This document shows, in pieces, positions 394-60,427 of a DNA stretch of 64,000 bases; within the stretch, counting starts at the first letter, position 1; every line of letters starts with the position of its first letter. Under the pieces are notes generated by a model that had not been told where the DNA came from, ran no database searches, and worked only from the letters and a program-made list of their open reading frames with translations. The position numbers and the translations under genes are program-made. Origin of the DNA: Henckelia pumila (lineage: Eukaryota; Streptophyta; Magnoliopsida; Lamiales; Gesneriaceae); NCBI RefSeq assembly GCF_033568475.1, contig NC_133122.1, forward strand, positions 82,173,442-82,237,441, read 5' to 3'.

Positions 394-2712
394 TGTAAGG
401 CCCGAAAATATTAAGTTCTTAATTACGGGATTTAAGATTTAAATTCCGAAAATGAGAAAAGAGTTATTTGAAGAAGTTAAGAAATTTGAGATTTCAATTT
501 CGGGTCAAAATATTTAATTTGAGTATTTTCGGATTTTAAGATTTTGATATCCGGAATTCTTAAATTAAAAGATTAAAAATATTTGAATTGATATTTATGG
601 AATTTAAGATGTGAATTCCAAGATGATAAATATCAAGGATTTAATTTGAGGATGACAGCCGAGCAAGGACCCATTTACAAATATTGAATAGTTCAAGGAC
701 TAAAGTGCGATAAGTTCCGAAATAATTTAATTTGAATTCGAGAATATTTAATTTGAGAATATTTAAAATTTAGAATTAAATTCTATTATTCTTAAATTAT
801 TTAGGATTGAAATTTAATTATATCGCTTGTCCGGGGACTGAATTGCAATTAGGCCAAAGTTCAGGGACTAAACTGCAAATAGGCCAATATATATCTAAAT
901 TCACATATTCCTAGACTTCATTCACGTGGGATTCAGAGGGGAATCAGAAAAGAAACCGTGAGAAAAGAAAAGAGAAGGGTTAAGCCATTTTTGCCTTTTC
1001 AAACTCCGATATCTTTTGATCCGTCTGGTAGAATTTCCAATTGAACATATATTTGCGATCACAGCTCCGAGTGCTACGTTTTGATATTTGAATTAAAAAT
1101 TATCGAAGTTGAATCGACGAGTTCAAGTTCGAATGACTTGAAGTGTTTGAAGTTGAATCAAAAACACCTTCAAGTAGCACTGATTGAAATGAGCAGATTT
1201 TGATGACCGATTTGGCTAGCTTTGAGATACTCAGCATTGGAAACAGATTCAAGATGTTTGAATCGCGATGAAAGGTATGAGTTGACATTATTCTTGCCAG
1301 GTAGAACAACTCGAGAACGTGGTGGTTTTCGAGTTATCCTGAAATCACATACTTACTTGTTTAAGTGTTTTTATGTGCTTCTTATTATGCCTTGAATGAT
1401 GTTTGAATGGTGTGTTCAAGATGTGTTAGCTTATTTAATGCATACAGATTATGTTGCATTCATCTTGAACCCTACCTTGAATAGCACAGAGGGCAGAATG
1501 GCCTAGAGTGCAGATGACGTTTGGAGAACTGTAGTGAGTGGCATGGAATGTAGATTTACTTTCAGAGTCAGATGACTCATGGCACGGAATATAGATTTAT
1601 ATCCAGAGCTAGATGACTCACTATAGTTGCACCAAAGTCAGGGAAATTAAGATATTTAACACCACCTCGATTGGGAGAGTCGGTGGTTAGTTAAAGATTT
1701 TATTTCCCGGGATCCCAAGAACTAAGCTTATTGGTATCAAATTTGATAGCCTATTCCTTGGCACATGCATTGCATTTATGCATTAACCTAGAGTTTTCTA
1801 TGGTTTAGAATATGCAGTTATAAATTCTAGCATGTTGTGATATGACATTCTAGATATGAATGTTTTATTATGCTTTATATGCTATTGCTTTAGATGAATC
1901 ATTATGCGTTAAGAGTTTAAGAGTCGATGATGATTCTATGATCTACATGTTATTACATGTTTTATGATTTTAGAGTTTTATAGCATATAGATTTCATATG
2001 CTTTCATGATGTATATGCATGTCTTTCATACTGAGATTTATTCTCACCGGAGTTATCCGGCTGTTGCTTTGTTTGTATGTGTGCATTGCATCAGGTTGGG
2101 GCATGATCAAGCTAGAGTTGGCTTGGATAGCTTGAGAAGAGAGATAGCATGTGGTGATTCGGGTTTTAAGCAGATGACATGTATTTATGCCTTGGTAAAC
2201 ATGTTAGAAAGCAAGAACAGTTGTATATGTTGTTTTTTTCAAGTATTGATTTATACTTGAGATTCCATATATTCTAGATCACTTGATATTAGTATGAATA
2301 CATGTAAATTATTTAGAAGCATGTTTAGATATATATATGATGTTTGTATGAGATTTGGAATCACTTTGTACAGCAAAGTTGCATTTTTTTATTTCCTGGA
2401 CATAGTGCCCGCTCGATCGGGTAAACTCCACGGATCGAGCGCGGGCTGTGATTTCCAAAGCAGAGAAATGAGCTTTTGGGCTCGCTCGATCGGGTGATTT
2501 CCACCGATCGAGCGAGGCCAAAATGAGTGTAGGCCGAGAGTTTGAATATTTAGCTCGCTCGATCGGTAAAGTTTGCCCGATCGAGCGAGGGGCCTTCTTT
2601 AAAAAAAAAAAATTTTGTTTTAGCTCTTGGTCTATTATTCATGTATTGTTTGATTAATTGTTAATTAATCATTTAGTTCCCTAAGATGAGATTAGCAACC
2701 CGGGTCCCCACA
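394..2712 (+). repeat. Gypsy LTR A (3' LTR of gypsy-0)
   Basis: The LTR opens TGTAAGGCCCG and closes with gtccccaca. Its body resembles truncated LTR D at 43070-45391; both share the 'gcgatcacagctccgagtg' stretch, the 'cacctcgattgggagagtcg'-like block and the 3' end 'agatgagattagca'. Internal gypsy sequence lies on its left and a copia LTR on its right, so it is the 3' LTR of an element that inserted into the copia 5' LTR. The bases after it (gatat) match the copia 3' LTR around 9005, which marks the insertion point; the matching duplication would lie left of the window. The short reading frames inside it are not genes. Confidence 0.85.
2404..2611. repeat. Hairpin cassette in LTR A followed by poly-A
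   Basis: Three inverted repeats lie in a row. One is imperfect at 2407-2446. The other two have exact 13 bp arms (CTCGCTCGATCGG and its complement) at 2481-2493/2504-2516 and at 2554-2566/2577-2589. A run of A follows at about 2600-2611. The last arm ends 123 bp before the LTR end. Equivalent cassettes with different sequences lie at the same place in LTRs B, C, D and E. Confidence 0.85.
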
Positions 2713-2769
2713 GATATATTTTGAGTTTTGAAATTTTTATTTTTTACCATAAATTTTTACTTTTTCACA
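2713..2769 (+). repeat. Remnant of the copia 5' LTR
   Basis: The stretch 'gatatattttgagttttga' and the AT-rich run after it match the end of the copia 3' LTR (9005-9062). It ends in 'cttttt caca', where the 3' LTR has 'tttttaaca'. No clear primer-binding site follows; the next bases (gcaagcacgatcgctccaag) do not resemble the usual initiator-Met tRNA complement. Confidence 0.75.
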
Positions 2770-2884
2770 GCAAGCACGATCGCTCCAAGGTTCTGTATAA
2801 TTTCCAAAACTCCCAAACACAATGAAAATGCAAAAATATTCAACAAGTAAGAATATTTATTTTACTGTTTATATATTTTTATTG

Positions 2885-3385: not shown

Positions 3386-3708
3386 TCATAAACGATCATA
3401 AAATGACTAGTTTTTGCCATATAAATATGATCACTCAAACACATATCAATCACACCAAAATTACTCTTTCTCTCAAAATTATTTCTCCTCTACTTTTTCG
3501 AAGAATAAAAATATGACATTTTTTAGGCTATTTTTTATAACAATTATGATCATCATACTCACGAGTCTTGTATTTATCGATGATTATCCATCACGAATTT
3601 TTTCTCTATGTTTAAACATGCTTGTACTCATCGTTCTTCAATTATTTTGTATTGTCATATTAATGGAAATTAACTAATAAAATGCATTGTTATTTTTCTA
3701 GTACCACC

Positions 3709-5790: not shown

Positions 5791-5799
5791 GAATCACCC

Positions 5800-10070: not shown

Positions 10071-10073
10071 TAG

Positions 10074-15018: not shown

Positions 15019-16326
15019 GTAATTAACTAGTATTGTTTTATGCTTACATGTTATTTATAAGTTCTTACATAATCTTCGTCTTCTCGATTTCTTCTTCTTT
15101 ATTAGGACTGGATAATATACATCTGGGGTTACTCATGCCGCTGCCAGTGCCTTTTGTATATCCTTCTGTAACAAATGGTAAATATGAACAAAATTTAGAT
15201 TGCAACTACATAACTAAGCAATTGAGGCATAATTCCCCATCAACAATGATCTGTCACTTGTTGTATTGCAGAGTCGAAGCAAGAATTCTTTTAGCTCTAT
15301 TTGAAAAGGAGAAATTGTTGATGCGTATCGTTTGAAAATAAGCTACTGGCCAATTGTTTCGAATTCAAAAGGTACGAGCGAGACCCAAAAACTTAATGCT
15401 AAGAAGTACCTTATCAAAGATGGGAAACTTTGTTTTGGTGATTGTGTTCATATCTTTTCCTTTTGTGTGTTGGAACTGTGTTGGTTTGAAGTGGAGTGGT
15501 TTTTGTTGGTGTTTGATTGAGTTGTTCTTGCTGCCATTATGAGTATTGTTACTGCTTGAACCACTTAGAAGATGCCACACATCCAATTCCAAACCACATC
15601 CATTCCCTCTAAATTCCGCTGTTCCACCTTTCAAGTTCTATCGCTCTTTCCCCAAACTATCTCCTCCTGCTTGGTTTGTTTTTATTCCTCCTACGGTGAA
15701 AGAATTAAGCTTTATTGATTTATGTTTGATAGTGTTTTTGGGTTTTTTGTTATTTGATTGGTTGTTCTTAGTCCTGTTCAACAATTTAAAGCATTGAGCT
15801 ATATTGTTATGTGAATCCAGTGTTTTTATTTGTTTAACTTTGCTTTCTTGACTGTTGTCGGTTCAGTTCTGAAGTTGGATTTGTACAGCCGCTTTGGTTT
15901 GATTGTGTTTAAGTTTAACCCATTTCCCATGCTAATTCTTGCTGGGTTTTAATTAATTTTTTCAGTAGGTTTCGAGGTTAAGAGGGATTTAATGATTTCC
16001 AGTATGTAAATTGTTCTTCTGATTGTATAAATGATTTATTTATGTTTATTTATAAAAAATTAAAAATGAATAAATATAAGGAAAATAGGACAAGTGAGAG
16101 AGTAACCTTACAAATAAAGGGAAATCACCGTCAGTTTTAAAACAACAACTTCTAAAAAATGAGACCAGATTTTCGATTCCAATTTCATTGTCTGCTTTCT
16201 TTAAGTTTGAAAACAACTTCTGAAAAATTAAATTTTTTTTTTGTATTATTATTTTACGTTACTTGTGTATTATATTGGTTTTATTGCAAATGATTCTCAA
16301 AGAAGCTGATCGAACAAGTAACAAGA
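15019..16326. other. Non-coding stretch upstream of the CACTA transposase
   Basis: This is T-rich, intron- or intergenic-like sequence. The left terminus of the CACTA element should lie here or further left, but no CACTACAAGAAAA-like end and no copy of the aacgcttttt palindromes seen at the right end was found, so the left end may be deleted or diverged. Confidence 0.4.
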
Positions 16327-33580: not shown

Positions 33581-35573
33581 TGTAACGCCCGAAATTATTT
33601 AATTTTAATCCGAAAATATTTAATTTGGGAATATTTGGAGTTTTGATTTAAATTCTAATATTCTTAAATTATTTAGGATTGGAATTGAATTAGATGATTG
33701 GCCGAGGACTGAATTGCAAAGAAGCAAGAATTGGAGGGCTAAATTGCAAATACTCATGAAGTTATCAGAATTTTTAATTCCTTGTCATCATGTTTACGTG
33801 TAAGTGTTAGAGAAAGTTCAGAAATTTGAGAGGAATTGAACAGAGCAAGTCGAGCTCCCTCCTTTTCTTTGCAATCTTCATTTTCAAATTGCCATATCTT
33901 TTGTTCCGGTTATCCGAATTCGATTCCAAAAAGTTTTCTGGACTCCTTGAAACAAGACCTTCGATTTGATGTAAGTTTTTGTATCTTTCATCATGGTTTA
34001 AGAATTCGAAAATGGCAGAGATCAGATGTGATTATGAATTGATGTTGTTGAACTTCTATGTTGTGTTATATTGAAGTCGGGTTGAGGAACGGATGTCGTA
34101 TCGGTTTCTTATGAATTTCCAGCAATTATTTCGAAATACCTATAGTATGTTATTCTGGTTTTGATTGATATTCAGCTGATATAGGATGTGAATGATTGTT
34201 AGAATTGTTGTAGTTGAGTTTCGGGTTGCCGAGCTCATACCGTTACGCCGTCGAATTTATGATTTGAAGCTGTTTTGCTATTGTATATGGGACTGAGATG
34301 TTGCTGAGTTTTAGCTGATATTTCCTTGATATATATTCTGTGATTTCAGTTCATACACAGGGGATGTCAACTTGAGAATCTCGAATTCTAAACCGATAGA
34401 ATTTCGAACAAGGTTTGTAGTATTTTGCCTTGAAGTTGGGCTGTAACTTGAGCAGAATTTTAATGCAAGATGGTGTGGTTATTTGTACAGATTTGGATAG
34501 CTAGAAGACACCATAAACCTCACACTTGAAAGGTAAAAGTGGACTACTACTTGAATGGGATTAAAACTCGAGATGGTTTGTATCGAGTTCCCTAAATCAC
34601 ATACTTATTTGCTTGTTTTCTTTTATGTGCTCTTCTATGAATTGTTGAATGAGTCTATGATGTTAATGTATGCTATTATGATGATATATGTTGCATTCAT
34701 CTTGTGAGACTTATTCTTGATTTTGAAATGAACGGAAACGTTCGATTAGATGATTTGAGGGATTATATATGTATGGCCTAGGTGGTTGAGTTAGCCTAGC
34801 GTCTGATTTAATATATAATGGCTTCAAAGTCTAGGGAAGCAAGATAAGTAACCCCACCTCGATCGGGAGAGTCGGTGGTTTAGTTACGATATCTTCTTCT
34901 CGGGATCCCAACCGATGAAAGGAGAGATTCTCTAAGAGAAGCCTATTTTAAAACATGCATTGTCTTTTATTATATATTGAGTTTGATATATATGACATGA
35001 TTTGCATGTTAGCTGCTTTTACTGGGAAATATGTTTCTTACTGGAGTTATTCGGTTGTTGTCGTGTTTGTATGTGTGCATGTCAACAGGTGGTTCAGGAT
35101 CAGGGAAACGACGGGCTTGAGGAATTGAGACTTGAGAGATTAGAGTGATGATCTGGTTTAGATGATGAGCTGCTGTCATATTATGCTTGTATAGATCTTA
35201 GACTTGAACTTTAGTCTAGAATGTTGCTTCGTGATCTTGTAATAATATTCAAAGTTCTTGTTGTTATTGTTATTAACTCTTTTGTTGGGATGTTGAGATA
35301 TGGACTTAGCAAGATCACATCTTTGGCTGCTGAATAACAGAGCTCGGGACTGTCCAGGATGAGCCCGAGCTGCAGAAAACTGCAGCTCGAGCGCACCTTT
35401 TGGTGCTCACACCCGAGGGTGGGCGCTCGAGCGGCTGAAAAGTGCCGCCCGAGCGCACCCCCCCTCTTAAAAAAAAATTCTTTGAAGCTTCGGATGCTTG
35501 TTGATTGCTTATCTTTAATTCATGATCTTGGATTCATTTTATGATTTGAGAGATTAAGAACCGGGTCGTCACA
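33581..35573 (+). repeat. Gypsy solo LTR B, nested in the SIRE-like LTR
   Basis: This LTR of 1993 bp opens TGTAACGCCCG and ends gggtcgtcaca, with a perfect duplication agttt (33576-33580 and 35574-35578). Removing it restores a palindrome of the surrounding array. Its start closely matches LTR C (50942-52947, minus), including 'gggaatatttggagttttga'. No internal sequence is present. The frame at 33836-34042 lies within it and is not a gene. Confidence 0.93.
35341..35476. repeat. Hairpin cassette in LTR B followed by poly-A
   Basis: CGAGCTGCAG pairs with its complement at 35366-35375/35380-35389 (4 bp loop). GCGCTCGAGCGGC pairs with GCCGCCCGAGCGC at 35423-35435/35444-35456 (one mismatch). An A-run follows at about 35468. 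The last arm ends 117 bp before the LTR end, the same place as in LTR A. Confidence 0.85.
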
Positions 35574-38044: not shown

Positions 38045-38374
38045 TGTAACACCCAGAAATTCGCCACGTAAACCCGCATGCTTAACTAGGGGATTTATTG
38101 GTTTTAAAATAAAGTAAAAGGGTTAAATGAATTTTATGTGCTATTATGTAAATTATGTGATTTATTTGCATGCTTTATACGACATTTAACCTGCTATGTT
38201 GCAATTTATGAAATTATTTGAGAAAAGTTATTTTACGATCGCGTAGACGGGACCGTGGATGGACGAGATGTTAGATTTTCACCCAAAATATTTTATGAGA
38301 TTTTAATAAGCCTTAAAATATTATTTTAATATATGATTTCGAGAAAATTACGGTATTTACAGATATATATATAT

Positions 38375-38413
<39 letters not shown>

Positions 38414-43069: not shown

Positions 43070-45391
43070 AGAGAGGAAAAAGGGTTCCAAGCCATATTTA
43101 ATCATTTTAAGCTCCGATAAAAATTGATCCGCTCGGTAGAATTTCTGATTGATTGTATATTTGCGATCACAGCTCCGAGTGCTACGTTTTGACGTAAGTT
43201 TTATGAATTTCTACCATGTTTGAATTTTAAGTTGTTGTTAGAATTAAGATTTGATTGTATAAACATGTTCTAGCATATACGACGATAGCATATCTAAGAC
43301 GAATCGAGCAAAGATCGTCGTTTGAACCTGTTTATGAATTTTTGAAGATTATTTGCAATTCTGAAATTTAGGGGCTGCATATTTCAAAATTTAGCTGAAG
43401 AATTGAAGATGATATCATGTTGAGATCATAGTATTGATGATGTTCATGTGTTTAGAATTTCCGGTTTTGATCCGTTACGCCGTCGGTTTGAATTCAGGTC
43501 ACGTGATCAAGTTATTAGATTGTTTGATAAGAATGAAATGATATTGAAAGCTCATATTGAATTAGATATCAATGCATTTCAGATTTGAATTGCAACATAT
43601 CGATTTCGAGTCGGCGAACTCGAGAAGTTAGCCTTTGAACCGAGAAAGACTGAAGAAGGTGTGAAGCTAGTTTGCCTTGAATGATTGTAATGATTTGAGC
43701 AGTTTTGGATAGAAGTTCTTTGATGTCAGTTATCCAGAATTGGAGCTTCTCAGATTCAGAAGGAAAGGTATGAATAGAGATTAATAAGATGGGCAGAATA
43801 ACTCGAGATTGTTTCTGATTATCGAGTTTCCTAAAATCACTTACATGCATATTTAATATATGTTATTGTTTACGTTTACATAAATGAGATAGATTATTCA
43901 AGATAGCTATCTTCTTGAATTTCCAGAATATTTATGTAAATGTTTACTTGCCTTCTTTGATTTATATTATGTTCTGTATTGAACATGTTTTACGTATTCT
44001 ATGTGATGCTTATAGATTTGTCCGTATCCTTGAGTGATTATATGATCATATGATTATATGATTGATGCGTTCAAGATGTTGTTTTAGCTTATGTATGATT
44101 TGATGCATCCAGATTATGTTGCATTCATCTTGAACTCCATCCTAAAAAGCACAGAGGGTTGAATGGCCTAGTGTGCAGATGACGTTTGGAAAATTGTAGT
44201 TGAGTGGCATGGAATGTAGATTTACTTTCACAGTCAGATGACTAATGGCACGGAATATAGATTTATTTCCAGAGCTAGAATACTCACTATAGTTGCACCA
44301 AAGTCAGAGGAATTGAGATATTTAACACCACCTCGAGTGGGAGAGTTGGTGGTTGGTTAAAAATTTTATTTCCCCGGGATCCCAGAGCTACGATTTATTG
44401 ATATCAGATTTGATAGCCTATTCCTTGGCACATGCATTGCATTTATGCATTAATCTAGATATTTCTATGGTTTAGATTATGCGTTTTTAAATGTTAGCAT
44501 GTTATTATATTTCATTCAAGATGTGAATGTGTTTATATGCTTGGTATGAGATTACCTTGGGTCAATAGTTATGCTTTAAGAATTTAAGGGTCGACTATGA
44601 TTCTATGATTTACATGTTATTACATGTTTTATGATTGAAGATTATTATGGCATATAGATTCAATATTCTTGAATGATGTATATGCATGTCGTTCATACTG
44701 AGATTTATTCTCACCGGAGTTATCCGGCTGTTGCTTTGTTTTTATGTATGCATTGCATCAGGTTGGGGCATAAGCAAGTCAGACTTGACTTGGATTGCAC
44801 GAGATTGAAAGATTAGAAGTGGAGACTCGGGTTTTTAAGCAGATGACATGTATTTTATGATTTGGTAATCATGTTAGAACAACAAGCACTTTTGTATATG
44901 TTGTTGTTGAGTATTGATTCATGTATTACAGATATGTAGATTGATGTCTAAATGCATGTCAAGTATGTGGAATCATGTTGGATAGCTTATATGATAGATT
45001 ATATCATTTTTTAGACTTGATAGCATTAAAAAGACTGAATTTTATGCGTAGGGCACGGACCCCATGCATGCCATGTGCATAGGTCCGGATGGACACTGTC
45101 CCAAAAATTTTTTGAGAAAAGGAGGCACGGACCCCGTGTAAGCCTCCGTGTAAGGGTCCGTGTGTCCTCTGTTCCGAAACTCCTTTGATTTCAATTTCTG
45201 CATAGGCACGGACCTTTATCCAGAACAGGCACAGACCCCGTGCCCTGGTCCGTGCAAGGGTCCGGACCAGGGTCCGTGTATGTTAAAAAAAAAAATTCAG
45301 TCTTTGATTTTATTCGTTCAAGTGTGATCCTTTTATGATTAAATGTTAATTTGCCTCTTAAGATGAGATTAGCACCCGAGGTCCCCACGTA
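43070..45391 (+). repeat. Gypsy LTR D, 5'-truncated, in place of the gypsy-1 integrase core
   Basis: From about 43070 the sequence follows LTR A (shared 'gcgatcacagctccgagtg' and 'catgcattgcatttatgcat', same middle block) and ends with 'ggtccccacg', where LTR A has 'ggtccccaca'. The first part of the LTR is missing. The left neighbour is integrase at GGLLHN and the right neighbour is integrase at LSPRFIKPYEIL, so the integrase core (roughly 230-300 residues) is missing with it. The left junction is purine-rich (aaagagaggaaaaag), which suits an illegitimate deletion. Confidence 0.82.
45051..45295. repeat. Hairpin cassette in LTR D followed by poly-A
   Basis: Several copies of 'gcacggacc' and its complement 'ggtccgtgc' alternate, for example CACGGACCC at 45126-45134 against GGGTCCGTG at 45154-45162. 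An A-run follows at about 45284-45294. The cassette ends about 111 bp before the LTR end. Its motif differs from those of LTRs A, B and C but resembles that of LTR E. Confidence 0.82.
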
Positions 45392-45811: not shown

Positions 45812-46014
45812 CGAGGACGAGGGGGGAAATTGCAATGCCCCAAAATTATCTCAATTGAGTGTATTATTGATATTCAGAGTTTAGAAATTGAGGGATTGAA
45901 TTGATATTTGATCAGGTACCGAATTGCTAAATTTTGAAGAGTTCAGGGACCATAGTGCAAAAAGAGGATTTTATATATTATCTTCAACTTTTTGAGATTG
46001 ACTAAGTCTCATTT
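45812..46014 (+). repeat. Gypsy-1 polypurine tract and left part of 3' LTR E
   Basis: The tract gaggacgaggggggaaat (45812-45830) precedes TGCAATGCCCC at 45831. The LTR is cut at 46014 by gypsy-3 and resumes at 58512, with cattt duplicated at 46010-46014 and 58507-58511. Confidence 0.87.
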
Positions 46015-48795: not shown

Positions 48796-48812
48796 GTTCC
48801 TCCCTCCCTAAT
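48796..48812 (-). other. Gypsy-3 polypurine tract
   Basis: On the minus strand the tract tagggagggaggaac precedes the 3' LTR start. It would act as the plus-strand primer. A 'cgaggacgaaa' motif lies just upstream, as in gypsy-0 and gypsy-1. Confidence 0.8.
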
Positions 48813-48819
48813 ACAGATT

Positions 48820-50493
48820 TTCGTCCTCGAAATTCGAGACTCACCAAATAGTTCCGGATAGCAAGCTCTGATATCTGCTTCTGCTTCCCAAGTGGCCTCT
48901 TCATCCTAATGGTTCTGCCATCTCACCTTGATCATTGGAATCGACTTGTTACGGAGGCTTCTCTCCTGTCTATCCAAAATCCGGATGGGCCTCTCCTCAT
49001 AGGTCATGTGAGGAGATAGCTGAAGTTGTTCCAAACTGAGCACATGGGACGGGTTCGAGATGTACTTCCTCAGCATCGACACATGGAAGATATTATGGAC
49101 CCCATCAAGGTTAGGTGGCAAGGCCACCCTATAAGCCAATGCCCCTACCCTATCCAATATCTCGAAGGGTCCTATGAACCTCGGTGCCAGTTTTCCTTTC
49201 TTCCCAAACCTCATAACTCCTTTCAGCGGCGCTACTCGGATGAACACATGATCTCCCACCGAGAACTCCAAGTCTCTCCTCCTGTGATCAACATAACTCT
49301 TTTGCCGACTCTGTGCAGTCCTCATCCTTTCACGGATCTTGGCTACAACTTCGGCAGTCTGCTGAATAATCTCTGGTCCCAACTCTGACCTCTCCCTAAT
49401 CCCGGTCCACAATACCGGAGATCTACATGGTCTCCCATAGAGTGCCTCGTAAGGCGCCATACCAATGGTGGCTTGAAAGCTGTTGTTATAAGCAAATTCC
49501 ACCAATGGTAGTCTCGACTCCCAACTGTCTTGAAAGTCAATGGCACAAGCTCTCAGAAGATCCTCTAGAATCTGGATCACCCTCTCGGACTGACCATCTG
49601 TCTGCGGGTGAAAGGCAGTGCTATACAAAAGCTTCGTCCCCAAAGCTGAGTGAAGACTCTTCCAAAAAGTTGAAGTAAACCGTGGATCTCTATCAGACAC
49701 TATGGAAACAGGGATACCTGTATTCTGACTATCTCTCGGATATAAAACTCCGCGTACTGTGTTATCGTGAAGGTCTCCTCACTGGCAAGAAGTGTGCTGA
49801 CTTTTTGAGTCGGTTTACTATAACCCAAATAGCATTCGAACTCCTCATTGTTCTCGGCAAACCAACAACGAAATCCATAGTAATGTTCTCCAATTTCCAC
49901 TCTGGAATAGGGAGTGGCTTAAGCAATCCTGCAGGTCTCTGATGTTCCGCCTTGACCTGCTGGCATGTCAGGCATTCTGACACAAATCGGGCGATGTCAT
50001 GCTTCATGCCCGGCCACCAATACAACCGCTGAAAGTCCCAATACATCTTCGTACTACCTGGGTGGATAGAGTACAATGATGTGTGCGCCTCTGCCATGAT
50101 AGTAGCTCGCAGAGAGTCACCTGCGGGAACCCAAAATCGTTCTCTGAACTTCACAATCCATTCTACTACAGAATACAGACCACTATCTTTCTCCTCAGCT
50201 CTCTGTCTCCACTTTCTCAGCTGTTCATCATCTGTTTGAGCAACTCTGATACGGTCAAACAATGTCATCTGCACTGACAAGGCTGACAATCTAGGAGCCC
50301 TACCCTTAGCATAGAACTCTAATCCAAAACTCTGAATATCATCCTGCAACGGTCTAGCCACTAACATGGAAGCAATCACTGCCGTCTTCCGGCTCAATGC
50401 ATCTGCGACCACATTAGCCTTACCCAGGTGGTAACTGATCTCACAATCGTAATCCTTCACCAAATCTAGCCATCTCCGTTGCCTCATATTCAA
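48820..50493 (-). pseudogene. Gypsy-3 RNase H end and integrase with chromodomain-like tail, broken
   Basis: The stretch opens with the RNase H end ([28 protein letters not shown]), then the HHCC domain ([28 protein letters not shown]). The catalytic core shows MDFVVGLPR (first Asp), SDRDPRFTSTFW (second Asp, 49700 downward) and GQSERVIQILEDLLR (Glu). The C-terminal part has PRFIGPFEIL and FHVSMLRKY, and the tail reads EATWEAEADIRACYPELF after a stop near 48904. Two frameshifts, near 49775 and 49720, separate the zinc domain from the core. All catalytic residues remain readable, but the protein could not be made intact. Confidence 0.9.
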
Positions 50494-50941
50494 CTCCTTC
50501 TGGGTGAAGAAGTACTTGAGGCTCTTATGGTCGGTGAATATCTTACACTTCTCTCCATAGATAGTGTCTCCAAATATTGAGAGCGAACACTACTGCCGCT
50601 AACTCCATATCATGTGTAGGATAATTCTTATCATGCTCCTTCAACTGCCTAGAAGCATAAGCAATAACCCTATCACGCTGCATAAGAACTGCTCTCAATC
50701 CCAACTTGGATGCATCAGTGTAAACCACGAAATCACCTTGCCCCGATGGCATAGCCAATACTGGTGCTGCGTAAGAGCTTCCTTCAATACATCAAAGCTC
50801 TTTTGACACTCGGAACTCCAAACAAACCTAGCATTCTTATTGGTTAATGCTGTCAAGGGCACTGCAATGGATGAAAAGACCTTGATAAATTTCCTGTAAT
50901 ATCCAGCCAATCCGAGAAAACTGCGAATCTCTGAGGCGTTT
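50494..50941 (-). pseudogene. Gypsy-3 RNase H, broken
   Basis: The frame enters from the reverse transcriptase side as IRSFLGLAGYYRKFI (near 50920) and runs to VLKEALTQ, where one base is lost near 50772. It then continues as the RNase H start, [55 protein letters not shown] second one-base loss near 50560 ends the frame before the [12 protein letters not shown] motif, which is readable in the next frame. The catalytic Asp of YTDAS is intact. Confidence 0.87.
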
Positions 50942-52947
50942 TGTGGGGCCTCAGGTTGCTAATCTCAAATCTTAAGGGCATTTAATGAATAAGCATCATT
51001 AAACTAATAAGGAAAGAAAGGATCTAAAAAAAAATATATATTTTTTTTTTCAAAAAGGGGTGCGCCCCCGCCGCCAAAAACTACCGCGGGGGCGCCCTTG
51101 TTTTTTTTCAAAACAGTAGGCTAATCTCCAGGCTGCGCGCGAGCCGTCAAAAATTACCGCGGGGGCGCCTCCTGGAGCAGAAACTTGCCCTGTTCTTTGT
51201 CCGCAAATATGATCCCTTCAATTCCTTCCAATTCATCAAACTCAAGTCTAAAACATGATATAAAAGATCCAAATCATGCATATTAATATAAAAAAGGTCT
51301 CAAGCATCTATACATGTATTTATTACATCGCACAAGTCGCTAAAGAAACGATAAACGACATAATCTATCTCAAGTTTCATACATGTATTCCAAAACCCAC
51401 AAGTTCTAAGGTTCCATGCTTCTAACATTCAAAACATCATCTACAACCCGAGCCCTCACGTGCTAGACTCTCTCCCAGCTGTCAATGACGTCGATGATCA
51501 GCTCCTGCCCTCTCTGTTGTCATGCACACATACAAAACAAGACAACAGCCGGATAAACTCCGGTGAGATATAATTCTCAGTATAACCAACATATCGAAAG
51601 CGTTAAATAAATCATATTAACTATATTTCAAACTCAACTCAACAAATAGAGTACTCAAACACTTTAAATACGAATTGATTCACATAACTTCGAAGCCATC
51701 AAGATTCATAACTGATCTTGACATGGATATCCATCTAACGAATTCGTAAACGACTCGCAAATAAGGTTAGCCGCAACCTTGGCTTAGAATCAATTCGATA
51801 ACATCATATCAACTCAAATTTAAAGATCCACTACCTGAGATGGATCGACAACACCACAATCAAATTAAAACATAAACAAGTATGTGATTTTTTTGCGGGC
51901 CAACTCAAAGATAATCGTTTTTGAGTTTCAAAGTCCCTACTTCGCGATGTCGTCATTATACCTTCTTTGATGTTGATTCTGAACTCTTAAATCTGAAAGA
52001 TAACAATCAAAATACTCATATCAAACTTCATTTCAACCTATCATTTCAGAAACGAGTCAAAACCATCAAGATTTCATCAATCAAAACCAATTCAAACCTC
52101 AATCAACTTTCTTCGGTTCAAAGTTGGCGTCTCGTGTTGTTGGCCTTCCAAACTTGACTGAAACTGAACAATAAAAATACTATAACATTCATAACATCTC
52201 AATAACAACTTCAACTCAGAATTCGGCTATCAAAACAGTTCCAAAACTTGATTAAACGACGTAGCGATTCAAAATCAGTAACCGACGTAATCCCGACTTC
52301 GAAACTTGTAACTCCAATTCATATATCAGCATGTATCATAAAAAACTCAGTCATAAAACATCTTATCAGCAGCTATAGTCATCGATATATAAGCTACAAA
52401 TCATAATCAATCCTTTCAATCATCCAACTTTGATCCAGTTTCGAAAATAGAAGCGATACAATAGCAAGAACACAATCAACAACTAAAAATCTGATATCTG
52501 CTCCATAATGATTTCGAAATCCATGAAACACAGCATAAAACTTACACGAGATTGAAGCCCTTGTTGTAAGGATTCCAGAACACTTTTCGGAATCGAAATC
52601 GGACAACCGGAACAAAAGTTATGGCAAATCGAAAATCAAACTTTCTAAGGAAAAGAGGAAGAAGACGGACTCTGTTCTTATTTTCTGAATTTTTCCTACT
52701 TCATACACGTGCACAAGCTGATAATCAATTCAATATCTGATAACTTTCAATAGAAATTGCAACTTAGTCCCTAGATTCTTCAATAATTGCAATTTGGTCC
52801 TCAGCCCCTATTTTAATTCAATTTCAATCCTAAATAATTTAAGAATATTAGAATTTAAATCAAAACTCCAAATATTCCCAAATTAAATATACGCGGAATA
52901 AAATTAAATAAATTCAGATTAATTTCTAATTAATTCCGGGCCTTACA
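50942..52947 (-). repeat. Gypsy solo LTR C in gypsy-3 pol
   Basis: This LTR of 2006 bp starts TGTAAGGCCCGG on the minus strand and ends ggccccaca. In element sense the flanks are aaatg on the start side (52948-52952) and aaacg on the end side (50937-50941). They differ only by a C-to-T change in CpG. Pol reads across the site. Its start is close to that of LTR B. Frames at 51921-52157 and 52394-52615 lie within it and are not genes. Confidence 0.9.
51055..51185. repeat. Hairpin cassette in LTR C
   Basis: GCGCCCCCGC pairs with GCGGGGGCGC at 51062-51071/51086-51095. A second, less perfect copy (gctgcgcgcgagccg, then accgcgggggcgcc) is at about 51134-51169. A/T-runs flank it at 51025-51053. The hairpin edge nearest the LTR end is 120 bp away, as in LTRs A, B, D and E. 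Confidence 0.83.
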
Positions 52948-53915
52948 CATTTCTAGGTACTGACCACTCCTTCACTGCTTGGACTTTGGAGGGGTCCACC
53001 TCAACACCTCCCTCGGAAATGACATGGCCCAAGAATTCTATTCTCTCCAACCAAAACTCGCATTTGTTGAACTTAGCAAACAGTTTCCGCTCTCAGAGTA
53101 CCTCTAGAACAGTCCTCAAATGCTGTGAATGCTCCTCTCTATCCTTGGAATAGATGAGGATATCGTCAATGAAGACGATGACAAATTGGTCCAAGAATGG
53201 CTGGAACACGCGGTATATAAGATCCATGAAGACCGCTGGCGCGTTCGTCAACCCGAACGGCATCACAAGGAACTCATAGTGACTGTAACGAGTCCTAAAA
53301 ACTGTCTTGAACACATCCGAATCTTTCACCCTCAGCTGATGATAACCGGATCGAAGGTCGATCTTTGAAAATACGGAGGCTCCTTGCAACTGATCAAAGA
53401 GGTCCTCAATTCTGGGTAGTGGGTACTTGTTCTTCACTGTCACCTCATTCAACACCCGATAGTCTATACACAGCCTTAAGCTTTCGTCCTTCTTCTTCAC
53501 AAAAAGGACCGGTGCACCCCATGGAGAGAAAATAGGGCGTATGAAACCCTTATCAAGTAACTCTTGAATCTGCTCTTTTAACTCCCTCATTTCCGTAGGA
53601 GCCAATCTGTACGGTGCCTTAGAAATTGGCACAGTACCGGGTACTAAGTCGATAGAGAACTCCACTTCTCTATCAGGCAGAATGCCCGCAACATCATCTG
53701 GGAAGACGTCATCAAAATCCCTGAAAATGTCTACATCTGAAATATCTGGATGCACTGGCAACTCTGTCAATGATAAGCTGGCTAAGAACGCCTCACATCC
53801 TTCATGCACCATCTGCTTAGCTTGCATAAAAGATATGATTTGCGTCTTCCTCTAACCCTTAATAGCCTCAAACTGAAACGGTTCTTCTCCCTCTGGTCTG
53901 ACCAACACTGACCTC
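52948..53915 (-). pseudogene. Gypsy-3 reverse transcriptase, broken
   Basis: In element sense the order is linker ([20 protein letters not shown]), [88 protein letters not shown] and the catalytic [10 protein letters not shown] box (about 53150-53180). The domain runs from 53827 to 53093 without a break; a stop at 53092 then precedes FAKFNKCEFWLERIEFLGHV. Two more stops lie between protease and this domain. Catalytic residues are intact. Solo LTR C splits the connection part at 52947. Confidence 0.9.
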
Positions 53916-54219
53916 TACTGAAAGTTGATCACCACTGCGTTCTTCGTCTTCCAATCTATCCCAAGAATCAAGTCGAACTCAGGCATGGGCAATACAATCA
54001 AGTCTGCAACTACTGATTGCCCTTGCAACAGAAGTTCAAGATTCCTCACCATTCTCCTAGTGGACAGTTCTTCCCCTGATGGGATGGTCACTGTGAATCC
54101 ACCAATCAGATCCTCACAGTCAATGCTCTGCTTGCGGGTAAAAGCCTCTGATATGAAAGAATGGGTAGCCCCTGAGTCTAACAAGCCTCTAGTGGCCACA
54201 CCGGCTACTAAAATTCTAC
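53916..54219 (-). pseudogene. Gypsy-3 aspartic protease
   Basis: This protease part of the polyprotein runs in element sense from about 54219 to 53916. It holds RILVAGVATRGLLDSGATHS with the catalytic DSGAT, then LIVLPMPEFDLILGIDW, the typical second conserved block. It is open until a stop right after VVINFQ at about 53915. In relatives the upstream stretch (LVTG) joins this one directly; here 235 bp separate them (54220-54454). Confidence 0.87.
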
Positions 54220-54454
54220 CTTCATTAAAGGTGATTACAACCACGAAAAGATTGGAAGCAAATAAGGCAAGTCCTACTTAGGCACATTCTAAGCCAACAA
54301 ATTCCATACTCATAATTATCTATTTCAACACGATCAATTAACACGAAGAATGCAACCTAAATCAAGTCCTCATTCCCCAAAAAAAAAGATCAAAATTGAA
54401 AATTGCATCTATGAATCAATTAAATCACCCTTAATTAAATGCTCTAAATATTAC
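54220..54454 (-). other. Putative intron, or small insertion, between nucleocapsid and protease of gypsy-3
   Basis: In element sense, coding up to ACAG| is followed by gtaatattta; the segment closes with ctttaatgaag| and coding resumes with GT-AGA-ATT. Removing the segment joins Val-Thr-Gly to Arg-Ile-Leu in frame. The segment is AT-rich with in-frame stops. Both borders carry AGGTA, so a 5 bp target duplication of a small insertion is also possible. Weak inverted similarity between its ends (gcatttaattaagggtgatt against tcattaaaggtgatt) would fit a MITE. Confidence 0.6.
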
Positions 54455-55523
54455 CTGTGACGAGCATGGTATCAGGATCGGCCTCCTCGGCCTTCATCAC
54501 AAACACCCTACCCTGAGTCGGCATGGCGCGCAATGGACAATCAAAAACCACGTGTCCTGGCTTCTTGCATCGATAGCAAACTCCGGCACCTGCCAGACAC
54601 TGTCCAAGATGAGCACAATGGCATTTCGGGCATACAGGTTTTTCCCCAGCCTTGGAAGGAGCGGGTCTCGGTGCCTGCTGGCCTTGGGGTCGCTGAACAT
54701 GATGTCCCTGGGGCCTATGGGTTAGATGTCCCTGAGGTCTAATGGGTCCCTGCTGACGCTGCGGCCAAATGAATGGCCTCTTCCCATGCTGCTGCTGCAG
54801 ACCATGGGATGGTAGTGGCCTCTTACTCTGCGCCTCAGTGCTGATGTCCTTCAAAGTCTGCTCAGACCTCAAAACTCGTCTGAGCGCCGAAGAATAATCA
54901 GCTGGATCCGCCATGAGTACATCTCGACGGATGGTGGGCCGTAGCCCAACAATGAAGTGCTGGAGCTTCTCCGCCTCATCGTCCCCAATAAAAGGCACAA
55001 AGTGGCAACCTCGCTCAAATTTCACCACAAACTCAGCCACTGATAAGTCTCCCTGTCGCAGCCTCAAAAACTCCATCTTCAAACGGGCCCTCACATCAGC
55101 AGTGAAATACTTTTCAAAGAAAAGTCTCCTAAACTCAGCTCAAGGCAGGGTAGCCGTGTCTACTTTCTTCTCCACTCCCTCCCACCAGAGGGCAGCATCA
55201 TGCTGGAGGTGAAAGACAGCACAACGGACTCGATCCGAATCTCCCAACTGCATATAGCGGAAGATCACCTCAAGCGAACGGATCCATCCCTCCGATACCA
55301 GTGGATCAGTGGTGCCAGCAAATTCCTTCGGATTCATCTTCCTGAACTGCTCATAAACAGTCCCAAGTCCAGCCCTCGGAGCGTCCACGTGTCGCTCTAG
55401 GATACGGGCTAAACCTGCTAGCACCTGTGTCCCGACATCCCCAGCTGGTAGAGGTGGCGGAGGAGGAGGTGGCGACGGTGGAGGAGGCGGTGGCTGCAGC
55501 GCACGTCCATGACGAATGACCAT
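54455..55523 (-). pseudogene. Gypsy-3 gag, one in-frame stop
   Basis: In element sense ATG at 55523 opens a protein with a Pro-rich N-terminus (HGRALQPPPPPPSPPPPP). The capsid domain follows (YEQFRKMNPKEFAGTTDP, WIRSLEVIFRYM, HDAALWWEGVEKK). A single TGA near 55139 stands where the family has Trp (stop-AEFRRLFFEKYF); from there it is open again: EFLRLRQGDLSVAEFVVKF, then Gln/Arg/Pro-rich repeats (RPQGHLTHRPQGHHVQRPQG) and Cys clusters CPKCHCAHLGQC and CYRCKKPGHVVFDC (an intact CCHC knuckle). The stop is one substitution (TGG to TGA). Confidence 0.9.
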
Positions 55524-55729
55524 CTGTAAGCAAGTTCAAATTCCCACATTCAAATTTCATGCCTTAGAAAAAGATTTTCTTTAAACTTTTGCAAGCTCGA
55601 AAATTAAAAGGATAAGCGGAAATGAACTTAAACAAATAGAAATAATTGCACTTAAATCTTACAGACTTTGAGGCGAGATCCCTTTGAGTTTCGGTAACCG
55701 GTAGTAGGCACAGACCCAACCAAGACCGA

Positions 55730-55743
55730 GGCTCTGACACCAA
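55730..55743 (-). other. Gypsy-3 primer-binding site
   Basis: Directly inside the 5' LTR, the minus strand reads TTGGTGTCAGAGCC. This matches the usual plant initiator-Met tRNA primer site (TGGTATCAGAGC) with one substitution. It would prime minus-strand cDNA. Confidence 0.85.
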
Positions 55744-55744
55744 C

Positions 55745-58506
55745 TGAAACGACTAGCTACTACTACTCAAATAAATAAAAGAAAATAATACATGGATTTT
55801 CAAAATAATTAAAATTTGCTAAAAAATTTTTGGCATGACCCGTTTGTTTATAGAACCAACCACCAACACAGACAGCAGTTCAAAATATTCTAAATAAAGT
55901 CTCCCAAACATTCAACAAGTACCAAAAACAAGTAACATGATAGTTGGGTGCCACACCGGGCAACCAAACGTAAAAGCGATACAAGACAAATGTTCCTAAG
56001 CAGGGAAACACATCCTGCTACCAAATAAAACGAGAAAGTAGGAATGTAAATTTATTACAGACTCTCAAACTGAAATGACACATCGGAAAATAAATGGATC
56101 CACGGACACAGGCCTGCGCCTCCGGGAACCTCACCCAGGGGATCCTGCCCCTCAGTCCACTGATACTCGTCCTCACCTGAAAGTAGAAAGAAGTGGGGTG
56201 AGTCTAAAAAACCCAGAAAGATCATGGAGGGGGGGGGGGGTAACGAGTACTACATAACTACAAGCACACACAGGTTTCAAAATAGTGCGTAATAAAATAA
56301 CCATTAGTGCCCCTGAACTTTAAAGTAATGAACATGTATAAAGAATAAATGCATGAATATGACATGTGCAAGCTTAAGTCAAATAACTCAATGAATAGCA
56401 TAAAATGTACTAAGAATGGTCATATGAATTTTGAATGAACTCCGATCCATGAATTGTGACTTTGTGATTGCGATCATGATCATGGCTACAGTGCACAATG
56501 CCGCAAGAAGGTCGAGATGAAACCCAACCCAATCTTGACCTAAATAGGTAAGGGAGACCAGAATAGCTCGGGCCCCACACGAACACATGCTAAGGTAAGG
56601 AAACCCATAATGATTTGGTAAGGGAGGCCAAAACATCTTTCAACCCTGCACGAACACATGAATATGTAGTCACAACCATCTCACTTCGTTCAAAAATATT
56701 TCTTTCCTTTATTGAATTTTAGACTTAGCATGCACATGTTGATGTAAAGTTTACGAAAATAATGACTCAATTAATCATGCGAAGGACTCGATGGTGAATG
56801 ACTGGATATGGTGATTTAGGGAAGTACCAAGGGTGGGAGTCTAAACCATGGTTAAAGCACTTAGGTGAAAGGAGCGGTACACTCGACACATTAATAACTC
56901 ACTCGATACTTGCCCAAAAGAGATTCGGCGTGAAACAACACTTTCCTACCCTCTTAAGTTAATTTCAGCCCCATACCCTTAACCCGAGTCTTTTTCTATA
57001 CTTGACTTAAAAGCTCAAACCCAAACAGAAATCTGTTTGCCAAAAATTTTGCCCCTCTATTGTCTCAAGGCTTAGAACTTAGTGAAAACTCATCCAAATT
57101 GAATTTCTCTAGAAACTTGATTTCCATAACTCCCTAAAGCGTCGATCAGCCCCGAGCCCTTCTTCGAGTTCAGCCTCTAACCCTGTTACAAACCCACATT
57201 TCTGGGCAGCAAGGGCTCCCTCAGAAATCTGCTCAACAACCCTTTCTCAAGTTCAACCCAATGCCTAACGAATCGTCCCTCAGACCTAAAACCACTATCC
57301 TATCATCAAAGCCAACATCTAAACTCATCCAACAACCCCTTAACAGTCGCCAACACCCCTTGCTAAAGCTCATTCCCGGACAACCCAAAACAGCACTTAG
57401 TTGCTGCCAAAATTTCGAACTGCCCCTAACCCAATCTCAAAACACATCCGACTCATTTTATTACTATCACGTGAACTACATATCACCCGTGGTATCTCCT
57501 AATTCACCACACCAATCAACACCATCAATCACACGACAGAAAATGAACAAGGAAGCCAAAATTTTTTGGAAATTTATTGGAATTGATTTAACATGTTTAC
57601 GATTGCATATCAAGGCCTCAAAATTGATTTAACTACACATATGATCATCATCAACCATTTACAAACAACATCATAAGCAGAAACCACAGGCCGAGAAGAG
57701 GAAATCCAACACAGGGCACGCATAAATTTTGGAAAAAAAAAATCTAAAATGAGTGGGGGGGTGGGGGGGAAACGCATCAACTATCACCTAAATGCATACA
57801 CAATAATCGTATATTAAATGCAAGGAATGAACCACAATCTTTCCTAAACTAAATCAAGCAAGAATCGAAATTCTCGTACAAGAAGTGAAGCTGCGGCGTG
57901 AGTGAGGTGAGGGGGAAAACAGGAGAGAATCGTAGGACCCAAGCTCAAACCACCATTCTAGCTAGCCAAGGAACGATTTCGTGGAGGAAAACGAAGCTTG
58001 AAAATTTCTTTGTGAAGAATCGAAGGTGCCGAGCTCACCTTGAAGAACAAGGGAAAATCATGTTGTTCTGTGTGTGTGTGTGTGTGTGCGGAAATGGGGT
58101 GCATGTGTTTAGGTGTTAGTGTGTGTGTGTGTGTTTTAAAAGTTAGGGTTAAACCCAAACCTAGGTGAAAAATACCAATTAAAATTTAAAATTCTAAACT
58201 AAGGTGATAACTTACATCCTAAATTAGTTCGCACTAAAATACACACTAGGATTTCCCAAATCAAAATAAAAGATCTAATTCGATAGCCCGGAAATTAAAA
58301 TACTAATCCTCGCAGAGATTTAAAATAAATGGCTCAGGAGCACGGAAAAATTAAATTTAAAAGCGACTGTCACCGAAAATTGAAAATAATTAAATAATAT
58401 AAAATTTAAAACTGATTTAAGCAATTAAATACCGAAAATTAAAAATTATAAATATTAAAACAGGTTTAAGCATAAAACTCAAATTATGGAAATTCTAGGC
58501 GTCACA
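55745..58506 (-). repeat. Gypsy-3 5' LTR (right in window)
   Basis: The LTR is 2762 bp, the partner of 46015-48795, and borders the primer-binding site. It has shorter G-runs (about 56228-56240 and 57752-57768) and a shorter GT repeat (58070-58087) than its partner; otherwise differences are scattered substitutions, many of them transitions. The frames inside it (56388-56636, 57261-58158) are not genes. Confidence 0.93.
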
Positions 58507-58511
58507 CATTT

Positions 58512-60427
58512 ATTCTCAAGCTTTCAGAATCCCGGTTTTGAACGATCCGTGCTGTAGAAATTTAATCCGAAGGTAGATTCGCAATCACGGCTTCGAGGGC
58601 TTCGTTTTATCGTAAGTATTTCTTTGATCGGTTATACTTCATTTTCCGTATGTCGATAAAATTTGATTTCGATTGGATATATCGTTCTTGAGCTAGCATA
58701 GATCGTGTTTTTGAAGACGGATCGGAAAATGTATGATGTTCGGAATTTTTATGAATTTTTTAAGCATAATTCGAAAATGGGGTGTTGAGATTTGGTTGAT
58801 ATTGAGTTTTTGTTGATGAATTGTTATTGATATGAGTTGGTTGGGATAGATTTATTGTTGTTGTGGTTTTTCGGTTGTTCGTTATACGTCGTTATGCCGC
58901 CGATTCGAGTTTTGGATATCATTTGGTTTGGTTGTTTGAGCCGTGTCTTCGATTGAGTTGTATATTGATTTCGAGACTATATTAATTCATTACAGATTGG
59001 TTTGAAGGTCGTAGAGCTCGGAGTTTCAGAATTCGAATCGATATAGAGTTTAAGCCGATATTGGGTTGATTTCTCTTTTGAAGATTGGTTTGAATTCGAA
59101 TGAGTTTTGGTATGAGATTATCATTTGTTTATCCAGGTTGGAGCACCTTTGAATTGAGAAAATATATAAGTCGACATCGAATCGAATAGGGTAGAATACT
59201 CGAATCCGACTAATTTTCGAGTTCCCTGGAATCACATACTTGTCTGTTTATTTGAATTACTTGATTTACATGTTTGAATGTATTTTGATTTCACTTACAC
59301 TCATATTGAGCCAACAATTTGATTTCATTTTGAATTAGACGTTTTGGGGATTATATTCGAGTGGCCTTGGTTGTCGAGTTCTTCCATGAGCCCGAATACT
59401 CGTTATAGTTGCTCCAGATCAGTCTAGAGGATTGGGATATATGCATCTTTCATCTCGAATAGAAGAGTCGGTGAGTAGTTCAAGTATCTCATCCTCGGGA
59501 TCCCAACCGAAGAACCGAGATTACCTTTGATTATCCGATTAGATAATCCCAATTTTTAAGACATGCATTTCATTCCATTTCATATTTGGAATATGTTGAA
59601 GTTATATCTTTTTTTATATAATTACTTGATATTGCATGTTTGTTGCTTTAATTTTACTGGGTATATAATTCTCATCGGATTTATCCGGCTGTTGATTTGT
59701 TTTTGTATGTGTACTTGGCAACAAGTGGGGCATGATCGAGTTAGAGGCAGTATGGCTTGATCAAGTTGAATGTTAGAAGTGAGGACTTGGTTTTAGAAGT
59801 CGAACTTGTTTGTGTTTAGTTATGTAAAACCTAGAACCGATGCATGTTCTACGCTTTTGAGTATTCGAATAACTTCAGACGTATCATGTATTGTATTTTG
59901 CGAGTTGATTATGTTATTTCATGTTGAAATGGAGATTTTGGATTTGTGATTGAGGTTCCTTTTCATGCTTCCTTAACTTATTTTTACTGGTTTTATCAGG
60001 GCACGAACCCCGTGCCTACATCCGTGTAGGGGTCCGTGTACCCTCGCATTGTTGATTTTGAATATTTTGTTCATGCACGAACCACGGACATGCCTCCGTG
60101 CATGGGTTCGTGTGAACATATGATCGAGACAGTAAGTTGGGCTTTTTAAAATGCTAGGCATGGACCCGAGCACAGAGGGTGCACGAGGTCCGTGCAGAAA
60201 ACATAGAATTGGACTTTTAGTGTATTTTTATGCACGAACCTTGACCCGAAGGTGGCACGAGGTCCGTGTACCCTACAGATTAATGCACGAATCCGTTCTC
60301 GGAGGTGTGCACGGGGTCCGGGCATGTTCTTTTTTTAAAAAAAAACAATTCTTACTTATGTATTGATTCTCTATTATCGATTGATTGATTTAATCTTGAT
60401 TAGATAATTAGAACCAAGGTTCTCACA
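58512..60427 (+). repeat. Right part of gypsy-1 3' LTR E
   Basis: The LTR resumes after the cattt duplication of gypsy-3. It carries landmarks of LTR A and its relatives in order ('gattcgcaatcacggcttcgag', the 'gagtcggtgag' block, 'ctcatcggatttatccggct') and ends with ggttctcaca at 60427. With 45831-46014 it makes an LTR of about 2.1 kb. It abuts gypsy-2 integrase on the right. The frames at 59050-60366 are not genes. Confidence 0.85.
60000..60349. repeat. Hairpin cassette in LTR E followed by poly-A
   Basis: About four units pair 'gcacgaacc' or 'catggacc' with 'ggtccgtg': near 60001-60039, 60073-60114, 60159-60200 and 60231-60327. A T/A-run follows at 60330-60346. The cassette ends about 101 bp before the LTR end. 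Motif and layout resemble LTR D. Confidence 0.8.

Follow-up and report, generated by a model that had tools for sequence, protein, structure and literature searches.

What keeps a block of sequence at one place in a retrotransposon while its letters change from family to family? This question is raised by a 64,000-nucleotide stretch of the Henckelia pumila genome (contig NC_133122.1, positions 82,173,442 to 82,237,441; hereafter the window), in which five gypsy long terminal repeats (LTRs), named A to E with their families, had been predicted to carry a hairpin cassette shortly before the 3' end. The host genome comprises 885 Mb. On direct reading of the sequence, all five LTRs contain GC-rich dyads (inverted repeats), 2–5 per LTR, followed by an A/T run, and the predicted layout is confirmed in A, B, C, D and E. 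Our analyses revealed that the array is not due to chance and occurs genome-wide. Very probably it is a cis-module under selection, with a dyad symmetry that counts. Conservation concerns mainly geometry: dyad length, the size of the inner gap (exact in three types, variable by about one base in two others), a location about 100 base pairs (bp) short of the LTR end and next to an A/T run and, for the commonest type, a 72–74-bp period.

Place of the array in the LTR

The LTR ends came from several samples. From 3,325 primer-site junctions, 100 places were listed and 60 of them read, leaving out overlaps with the termini listing, two places on contig C1 near 1.05 and 3.38 Mb, and places after the sixtieth; a further 20, picked for variety, came out of 100 listed from 3,064 termini, and all 80 lie on C1. 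Family searches supplied 8 loci of A, 30 of B, 30 of C and 20 of D, two partial matches of B, and 18 of 40 scored matches of E, to which the window copy was added.

Within the last 300 nucleotides (nt) of 65 LTR ends, perfect inverted repeats with arms of at least 8 numbered 115, against 12.7 expected from dinucleotide shuffles, a count that takes in the AT-rich repeats of U5 and of the A/T run. The folding z was below -3 in 50 of these 65 ends (L132 being taken in the wrong orientation in this count). Dyads scoring at least 14 were found almost only 100–250 bp from the LTR end (65 copies: A 7, B 29, C 29), with per-LTR densities of 0.94, 0.20 and 0.35 in the three 50-bp bins of that interval and at most 0.11 in any other bin. 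A criterion of dyad score at least 13, GC at least 0.5 and a 3' edge 95–185 nt from the LTR end, set after the discovery set was seen and then applied to 20 held-out ends, recovered 17 of the latter (0/400 shuffles) and 30 of the 40 discovery ends (4/800 shuffles). When an A or T run of at least 6 within 45 nt was added, 15/20 held-out and 25/40 discovery ends remained. A search of the interval from 215 to 70 nt before the LTR end located the A/T run in 83 of 85 ends, with its start at a median of 114 nt.

The place is also held on the scale of the genome. The pattern CCGATCGAGC followed at 75–105 nt by GATTAG and CACA has 4,276 genome matches (2,080 + 2,196, with a few places counted twice), against 19 (13 + 6) when the distance is raised by 300 bp. 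Exact CTCGATCGG/CCGATCGAG dyads occur 13,473 times and exact CACGGACCC/GGGTCCGTG dyads 1,847 times, and the reversed pattern occurs 0 times in either case. The bins, the held-out ends and the distance search thus bear out the predicted fixed place with changing sequence, and the blocks do not lie at unrelated positions.

In the window, the distance from the 3' edge of the block to the LTR end is 123 bases in A, 109 in B, 110 in C, 107–109 in D and 101 in E. The symmetric dyad finder called three dyads in A, two each in B, C and D, and three in E, one of which spans two units; by eye, three units were located in D and five in E. The expected two to four repeats per block do not fit E, which has five. 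The signal of an individual window copy may be weak: perfect inverted repeats of 8 are absent from E, and the cassette folding z on the sense strand is -2.3 for C and -2.6 for E.

Symmetry, gap and decay of the arms

The arms are unlike between families and alike within one element. The types seen were CTCGATCGG, CTCGATCCG, CAGGATCGATCCTG, CTCGAGCG, GCGCCCGAGC, GCGCCCCCGC, CGCG-rich, GGGCGCGCC and CACGGACC. Even so, 294 of 1,742 pair cells differ between dyads that belong to a single LTR. Dyads mostly measure 34–38 nt. Across 190 LTR ends, the inner gap of the CTCGATC dyads, the commonest type, was 14 in 103/103 cases with 65 distinct gap sequences, and that of the GCGC[CT]CG dyads was 20 in 32/32 with 17 distinct sequences. 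The C-type dyads likewise have a gap of 14 in 25/25 cases, but with 2 distinct gap sequences, which makes this instance weak. Gaps of 9, 20–21 or 31–33 were counted in the CACGGACC type and of 11–12 or 30–31 in the CTCGAGCG type. With gaps of 4–16 permitted, the CTCGATCGG/CCGATCGAG dyads took the 28-nt form in all 100 matches listed (53 places). At the rate of length change seen in the spacers, zero gap changes in 65 would have a P of about 1e-9, a value that assumes independence, which is untrue of related sequences.

The distance from dyad to dyad in the CTCGATC type departs from its mode in 39 of 69 cases. In the CTCGATC register the dyad period is 72–74 bp in 87 of 96 cases; elsewhere it is 62–63 in B-like arrays (11/20) and 61–62 in the CTCGAGCG type (3/3). 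Helical phasing was considered as an explanation and rejected: the spacings of about 62 and 73 are suggestive of it, and those of 65–66 and the wide spread of the CACGGACC type are not.

Symmetry is partly maintained while the letters change. Among 127 unique dyads in the CTCGATC register, pair positions 1, 2, 9, 10, 12 and 13 of 13 were Watson–Crick above all 300 shuffles, in a set that had itself been picked for pairing (at least 8/13), which inflates the totals and is a caution against our own reading. The remaining seven positions were not above the shuffles, and most are nearly invariant. At position 10, T-A is found in 105 dyads and G-C in 20. When dyads within one LTR were compared, both partners differed 89 times, against 21 expected if they changed independently, and 31 of the 89 differences, in 17/58 LTRs, were compensated. 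In one LTR end, L176, both dyads carry CAGGATCGATCCTG-type arms, 36 nt each and 74 bp apart, and all four half-sites are of one new type, in front of a U5 that resembles those of CTCGATC-type LTRs. With the 36-nt dyads kept and all arms changed, L176 looks like a symmetric change in place.

The arms of family E decay more slowly than their flanks. In 19 copies, non-CpG identity was 0.929 in the arm columns (70 columns), 0.854 in the spacers, 0.829 upstream and 0.830 downstream; the arm columns had been placed where the majority line matched the motif, a choice that biases the comparison somewhat towards the arms. In E, the one family measured, the arms do not decay like their surroundings. The density of CpG per 100 nt, from 80 ends, is 7.1 in the cassette window, 1.0 upstream and 1.5 downstream.

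A second, AT-rich inverted repeat, of the TGATTAATT type, occupies a steady place in the U5 of A-type LTRs, in the last 62–41 nt (window 2651–2671; L111, L122, L124), and some LTRs carry a CGATTAAT version, a paired change from the TGATTAATT type.

Candidate roles of the array

What is observed, and what the explanations below are weighed against, is the array with its position, a symmetry that includes some paired changes, the slower decay in E, the gaps, the high CpG density and one exchange at the A-run. We lean, with slightly less than even confidence, towards an array that is read mainly as DNA. A dimeric protein would bind it in double-stranded form and would need two half-sites at a set distance, and several dyads in a row would make up a regulatory or chromatin-opening site of the LTR beside the A/T run. 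The half-sites of one element would tend to be alike because the same protein meets them, and families would drift apart, perhaps under pressure from small-RNA silencing or because the partner protein changed. A dimeric DNA-binding protein would require a gap of exact length and leave its letters free; RNA loops usually vary in length.

Several points weigh against this reading. The binding protein, the transcript and the promoter are all putative; among families A, B and C, a TATAAAT is shared in A alone (7/7 copies, about 890 bp from the end), none being common to the copies of B or C. Dyads of one LTR may differ and yet each be self-complementary (17/58 LTRs), which a single DNA-binding specificity would not need, and the stem reaches 20 bp in dyad 2 of LTR A, beyond the usual length of a half-site; both features speak for a folded strand. 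Of the 294 differing pair cells, 31 are compensated, 205 one-sided and 58 two-sided without full pairing, although many one-sided or unpaired differences would be expected if many copies are decaying. The gap in the CACGGACC and CTCGAGCG types varies by about one base, the CGCG arrays are spaced 65–66 bp apart (3/3), which is not a whole number of helical turns, and the CACGGACC arrays have no single spacing (82 bp in just 15/71, with a wide range). The observed/expected ratio of CpG exceeds that of the rest of the LTR in A only. The positional criterion was missed by 10/40 discovery ends (L130, L134, L137, L145, L152, L153, L158, L159, L166 and L168) and by 3/20 held-out ends (L172, L182 and L187), and inspection by eye showed no cassette in L145, L182 and L187.

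The strongest rival, a serious one though in our view rather less likely than not, reads the array as RNA. Hairpins in R would lie just upstream of the poly(A) site, with the A/T run as its A-rich signal, and between the cap and the primer site in the 5' leader, and would serve 3'-end formation, packaging or dimerisation in the manner of retroviral R hairpins. The position of the run is in keeping with this, and the primer-site sequence lies about 5 nt past CACA, which would place the array in the leader if transcription starts upstream. The self-complementary dyads that differ within one LTR also fit hairpins. Folding gives no clear preference. Among 96 ends, the composition-corrected z averaged -5.35 on the sense and -5.90 on the antisense strand and fell below -3 in 73 and 81 ends, respectively; by dyad set, the sense strand was the stronger in 43 and the antisense strand in 42 of 90. 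The uncorrected folding energy was lower on the sense strand in 76/96 ends, as an RNA role would predict and as a point against the DNA reading. After correction the sense strand does not fold more strongly, so the data do not favour a role as RNA above one as DNA; selection on an RNA stem should give a sense excess, though many dead copies dilute it.

Wobble pairs point the same way. G.T pairs did not exceed A.C pairs in the CTCGATC register (45 and 78) or in 60 sampled ends (50 and 105). By family, G.T to A.C was 14 to 122 in B, 0 to 32 in C, 48 to 56 in D, 10 to 2 in A and 32 to 11 in E; B and C lean towards A.C, A and E towards G.T, and D is near even. A sense-RNA reading through wobble pairs and folding was set aside, as no strand signal is common to the families. 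AATAAA occurs in merely 18 of 83 A/T runs, plant poly(A) signals being looser, and Rfam gave no match in the window at gathering scores. Moreover, a change of loop length is normally tolerated in RNA hairpins, and no variation of the inner gap was seen in the commonest type. The suggested role in transcript 3'-end formation is therefore not favoured over a role as DNA.

An improbable alternative is that the array is a landmark of reverse transcription, in which GC-rich hairpins would stall the enzyme and the T-rich nascent end would transfer early to the A-run or the poly(A), be it on the same RNA or on a different one. Such a process would yield both the pairing of hairpins with an A-run and the exchange of cassettes at that run. 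A and D resemble each other to either side of the cassette and differ within it: identity is 0.81 in the body (shuffle 0.65) and 0.73 in U5 (shuffle 0.56), against 0.53 in the cassette (shuffle 0.54). The likeness is already lost in the 60 bp preceding the cassette (0.62, shuffle 0.60), so A and D do not diverge only at the A-run. L134 resembles L117 and L152 in body and cassette (0.88 and 0.93 over the 230 nt before the A-run; baseline 0.58) and the A-type group L124, L120, L111 and L186 in U5 (0.76–0.82 after the A-run; baseline 0.56). The changeover falls in the A-run, and, judged by these identities, L134 is a recombinant joined there. In addition, seven B-family matches, two of which were read (L069, L070), span just the interior of the cassette to the LTR end at 92–94% identity.

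These cases fit occasional template switching; a role in template switching depends on a single clean recombinant, too few to establish the hot spot that had been suggested. Of 3,875 pairs of LTR ends, 36 share U5 and not the cassette, and 30 of these involve L176, L134 or losses of the cassette (L115, L123, L187); just 2 pairs share the cassette and not U5. Single-linkage clustering of the U5s was uninformative, with 73 of 83 in one cluster. A landmark of reverse transcription would also leave the exact gaps and the like arms within an element unexplained. The idea of a swappable module, for its part, holds where A and D share flanks without the cassette and in the recombinant L134; it does not describe L176, which appears to have been rewritten in place, or the CTCGATC type, which keeps length and spacing while its arms differ. 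Another U5 type, with GCGACGTG/GCGTCGCC words, was seen behind several cassette types (L110, L112, L117, L119, L152, L153, L167, L183, L187).

We give as little credence to mutational upkeep, in which template switching within inverted repeats copies one arm from the other and palindromes are kept without function. The arms of L176, all changed together and symmetric, and the absence of a strand bias after composition correction would agree with it, but this process would not hold the place in the LTR, the inner gap or the slower decay of the arms. It could instead be a source of mutations on which selection acts. Plain common descent, a single old cassette decaying without constraint, is very improbable: the landmarks found across families (dyads of similar length, spacer words that resemble ACCCGAG on reading by eye, related LTR ends) and the 263 of 294 uncompensated differences between same-LTR dyads would agree with it, yet E arms are conserved above their flanks, A and D arms are unrelated despite like flanks, six of 13 positions show paired changes, and gaps are exact.

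To return to a selected palindrome array, perhaps read as DNA, a wider proposition can be put forward that we regard as somewhat speculative, though not implausible. A large gypsy group may carry a nearly sequence-free cis-element in which selection maintains mainly the shape (two mirror arms, a set gap and a set place beside an A/T run near the LTR end), and the letters would be replaced from family to family, in concert among the dyads within each element. Such a cis-element would have arisen independently of the palindromic boxes of Sireviruses, with two unrelated superfamilies converging on palindrome arrays that change rapidly, and template switching at the A-run could carry it from one family to another.

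Host elements and known LTR palindromes

The features of the five window arrays are collected in Table 1.

Table 1. Dyads, units and A/T runs of the window LTRs (positions in the window; dyads of LTR C numbered in its own direction)
Feature	Position	Strand	Basis
LTR A dyad 1, GCTCGATCGG arms, longer outer stem	2401..2450	+	symmetric dyad finder and reading
LTR A dyad 2, TTTTGGGCTCGCTCGATCGG arms, 20-bp stem, 19 Watson–Crick	2474..2523	+	symmetric dyad finder
LTR A dyad 3, 36 nt, 13/13 pairs	2554..2589	+	symmetric dyad finder
LTR A, A/T run 3' of array	2598..2616	+	located in sequence
LTR B dyad 1, CCCGAGCTGCAG arms	35356..35399	+	symmetric dyad finder
LTR B dyad 2, GCGCTCGAGCGGC arms	35415..35464	+	symmetric dyad finder
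LTR B, A/T run	35467..35479	+	located in sequence
LTR C dyad 1, upstream, imperfect, 12/15 pairs	51126..51177	-	symmetric dyad finder
LTR C dyad 2, GCGCCCCCGC / GCGGGGGCGC, gap 14	51052..51105	-	symmetric dyad finder and gap count
LTR C, A/T run	51025..51050	-	located in sequence
LTR D unit 1, CACGGACC type	45052..45090	+	by eye; finder made no call
LTR D unit 2	45124..45163	+	symmetric dyad finder and location
LTR D unit 3	45228..45282	+	symmetric dyad finder and location
LTR D, A/T run	45283..45297	+	located in sequence
LTR E unit 1, CACGGACC type	60000..60039	+	symmetric dyad finder and location
LTR E unit 2	60073..60114	+	symmetric dyad finder and location
LTR E unit 3	60157..60195	+	by eye
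LTR E unit 4	60231..60269	+	by eye
LTR E unit 5	60284..60326	+	by eye
LTR E, A/T run	60330..60345	+	located in sequence

LTR A (394–2712) starts with TG, ends with CA and is preceded by a purine tract. LTR B (33581–35573) is probably a solo LTR, because AGTTT stands at both flanks and no partner LTR lies within the window. LTR D (43070–45391) has no TG at 43070 and no clean TG start, and its end is CACG near 45389. LTR E (45831–46014 and 58512–60427) is interrupted by a nested element, N (46015–58506), inside which sits LTR C (50942–52947, minus strand). The LTRs of N measure 2.76–2.78 kb and are 93.5% identical, and minus-strand pol pieces flank LTR C on either side. The LTRs of N contain no dyad scoring at least 13, and the same cut leaves just one in E and one in C.

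The primer-site sequence, which we take to be that for initiator-Met, was found about 5 nt past the LTR in copies of A, B and C. Two copies of family C (L041, L057) have a gag that matches the Retrotrans_gag and Ty3_capsid profiles, obtained for family C only, by which its host elements are classed as Ty3/gypsy; they may belong to the Tekay/Del clade. An open reading frame of at least 110 amino acids within about 1.5 kb of the primer site was present in 12/12 copies of C and in 0/12 copies of A and B (between L002 and L033). Families A and B may for this reason be non-autonomous, sharing their layout with a gag-bearing family.

Other features of the window are reverse transcriptase, RNaseH and integrase pieces at 36433–38114, assigned to none of the five LTRs; Transpos_assoc, Transposase_21 (tnp2) and DUF4218 pieces in three overlapping frames at 16294–18792 (plus strand), presumably of the CACTA type; and self-inverted stretches of several hundred bases at 28514–28993 and 29326–29797 (blastn to their own reverse complement, 66–93%). 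Outside the window, L172 (G000:C1:14918734-14919134) contains two tandem LTR ends, the first A-type and with CACA, after which come a U5 of a different type and the primer site, and five same-direction LTR termini about 2.1 kb apart at G000:C1:13516962-13525478 apparently form a tandem LTR array.

The closest precedent appears to be the repeated motifs (RM boxes) of Sireviruses, plant Ty1/copia elements, which according to Bousios et al. (2010, PMC2829016) are palindromic, differ by element, form CpG islands and lie upstream of the promoter; its Table 3 gives 13 elements with motifs and 3–14 motifs per 3' LTR. Both systems have dyad symmetry, several copies per LTR (2–5 here) and a sequence that is specific to the element or family and uniform within the element. 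CpG richness may be a further common trait, although here the density is high in the cassette and the observed/expected ratio stands out in A only. The arrays of Sireviruses have been linked to regulation and silencing. The Sirevirus boxes measure about 10–20 nt, cluster in the upper half of the LTR with a conserved TATA box downstream of them and have a CGG-CCG core in all but one element. The present arrays, in contrast, belong to Ty3/gypsy, as judged by the gag of family C, and consist mostly of 34–38-nt dyads with long inner gaps about 100–445 bp from the 3' end of the LTR, followed by the A/T run, with no TATA box shared by the B and C copies. CGG-CCG is found in the CTCGATCGG dyads and is absent from the CTCGAGCG and other types, no core being common to all families. 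Because superfamily, position and core all differ, we do not file the arrays as Sirevirus motifs; they may be regarded as a separate variety of palindromic LTR array.

Other systems share some of these features. In maize LTRs, hairpin-forming palindromes have been argued (PMC10760457) to be kept for cis-regulation against small-RNA silencing; maize Ty3 elements are there described as generally without an obvious structure peak, whereas the present gypsy group has a sharp one. The retroviral and metaviral LTRs of Benachenhou et al. (2013, PMC3601003) are alike in having conserved structure near the polyadenylation signal with variable sequence. Unlike their R stem-loops with AATAAA, the arrays described here show no composition-corrected sense signal, mostly lack AATAAA and contain several dyads, not one stem-loop. 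Upkeep of hairpins by template switching has been argued for RNA genes (PMC8794818), with which our arrays share multibase compensated stem changes; the fixed gap length and place seen here are not given by that process alone. Two further sources were not used: PMC6911290, which reports a weak insertion preference for palindromes, and PMC6317226, a clade survey whose accessible text makes no mention of palindromes or hairpins. A literature search for such arrays in Ty3/gypsy LTRs gave none among the matches listed; most subscription papers were out of reach, and absence from print is not claimed.

The palindrome peak described here belongs to a Ty3/gypsy group with thousands of copies in a single genome; it lies elsewhere in the LTR than the Sirevirus boxes and preserves its gap. 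The A-run is a possible landmark for exchange between element families. As many natural arm variants exist side by side in one genome, symmetry, sequence and spacing would become separable, and the purpose of LTR palindromes testable.

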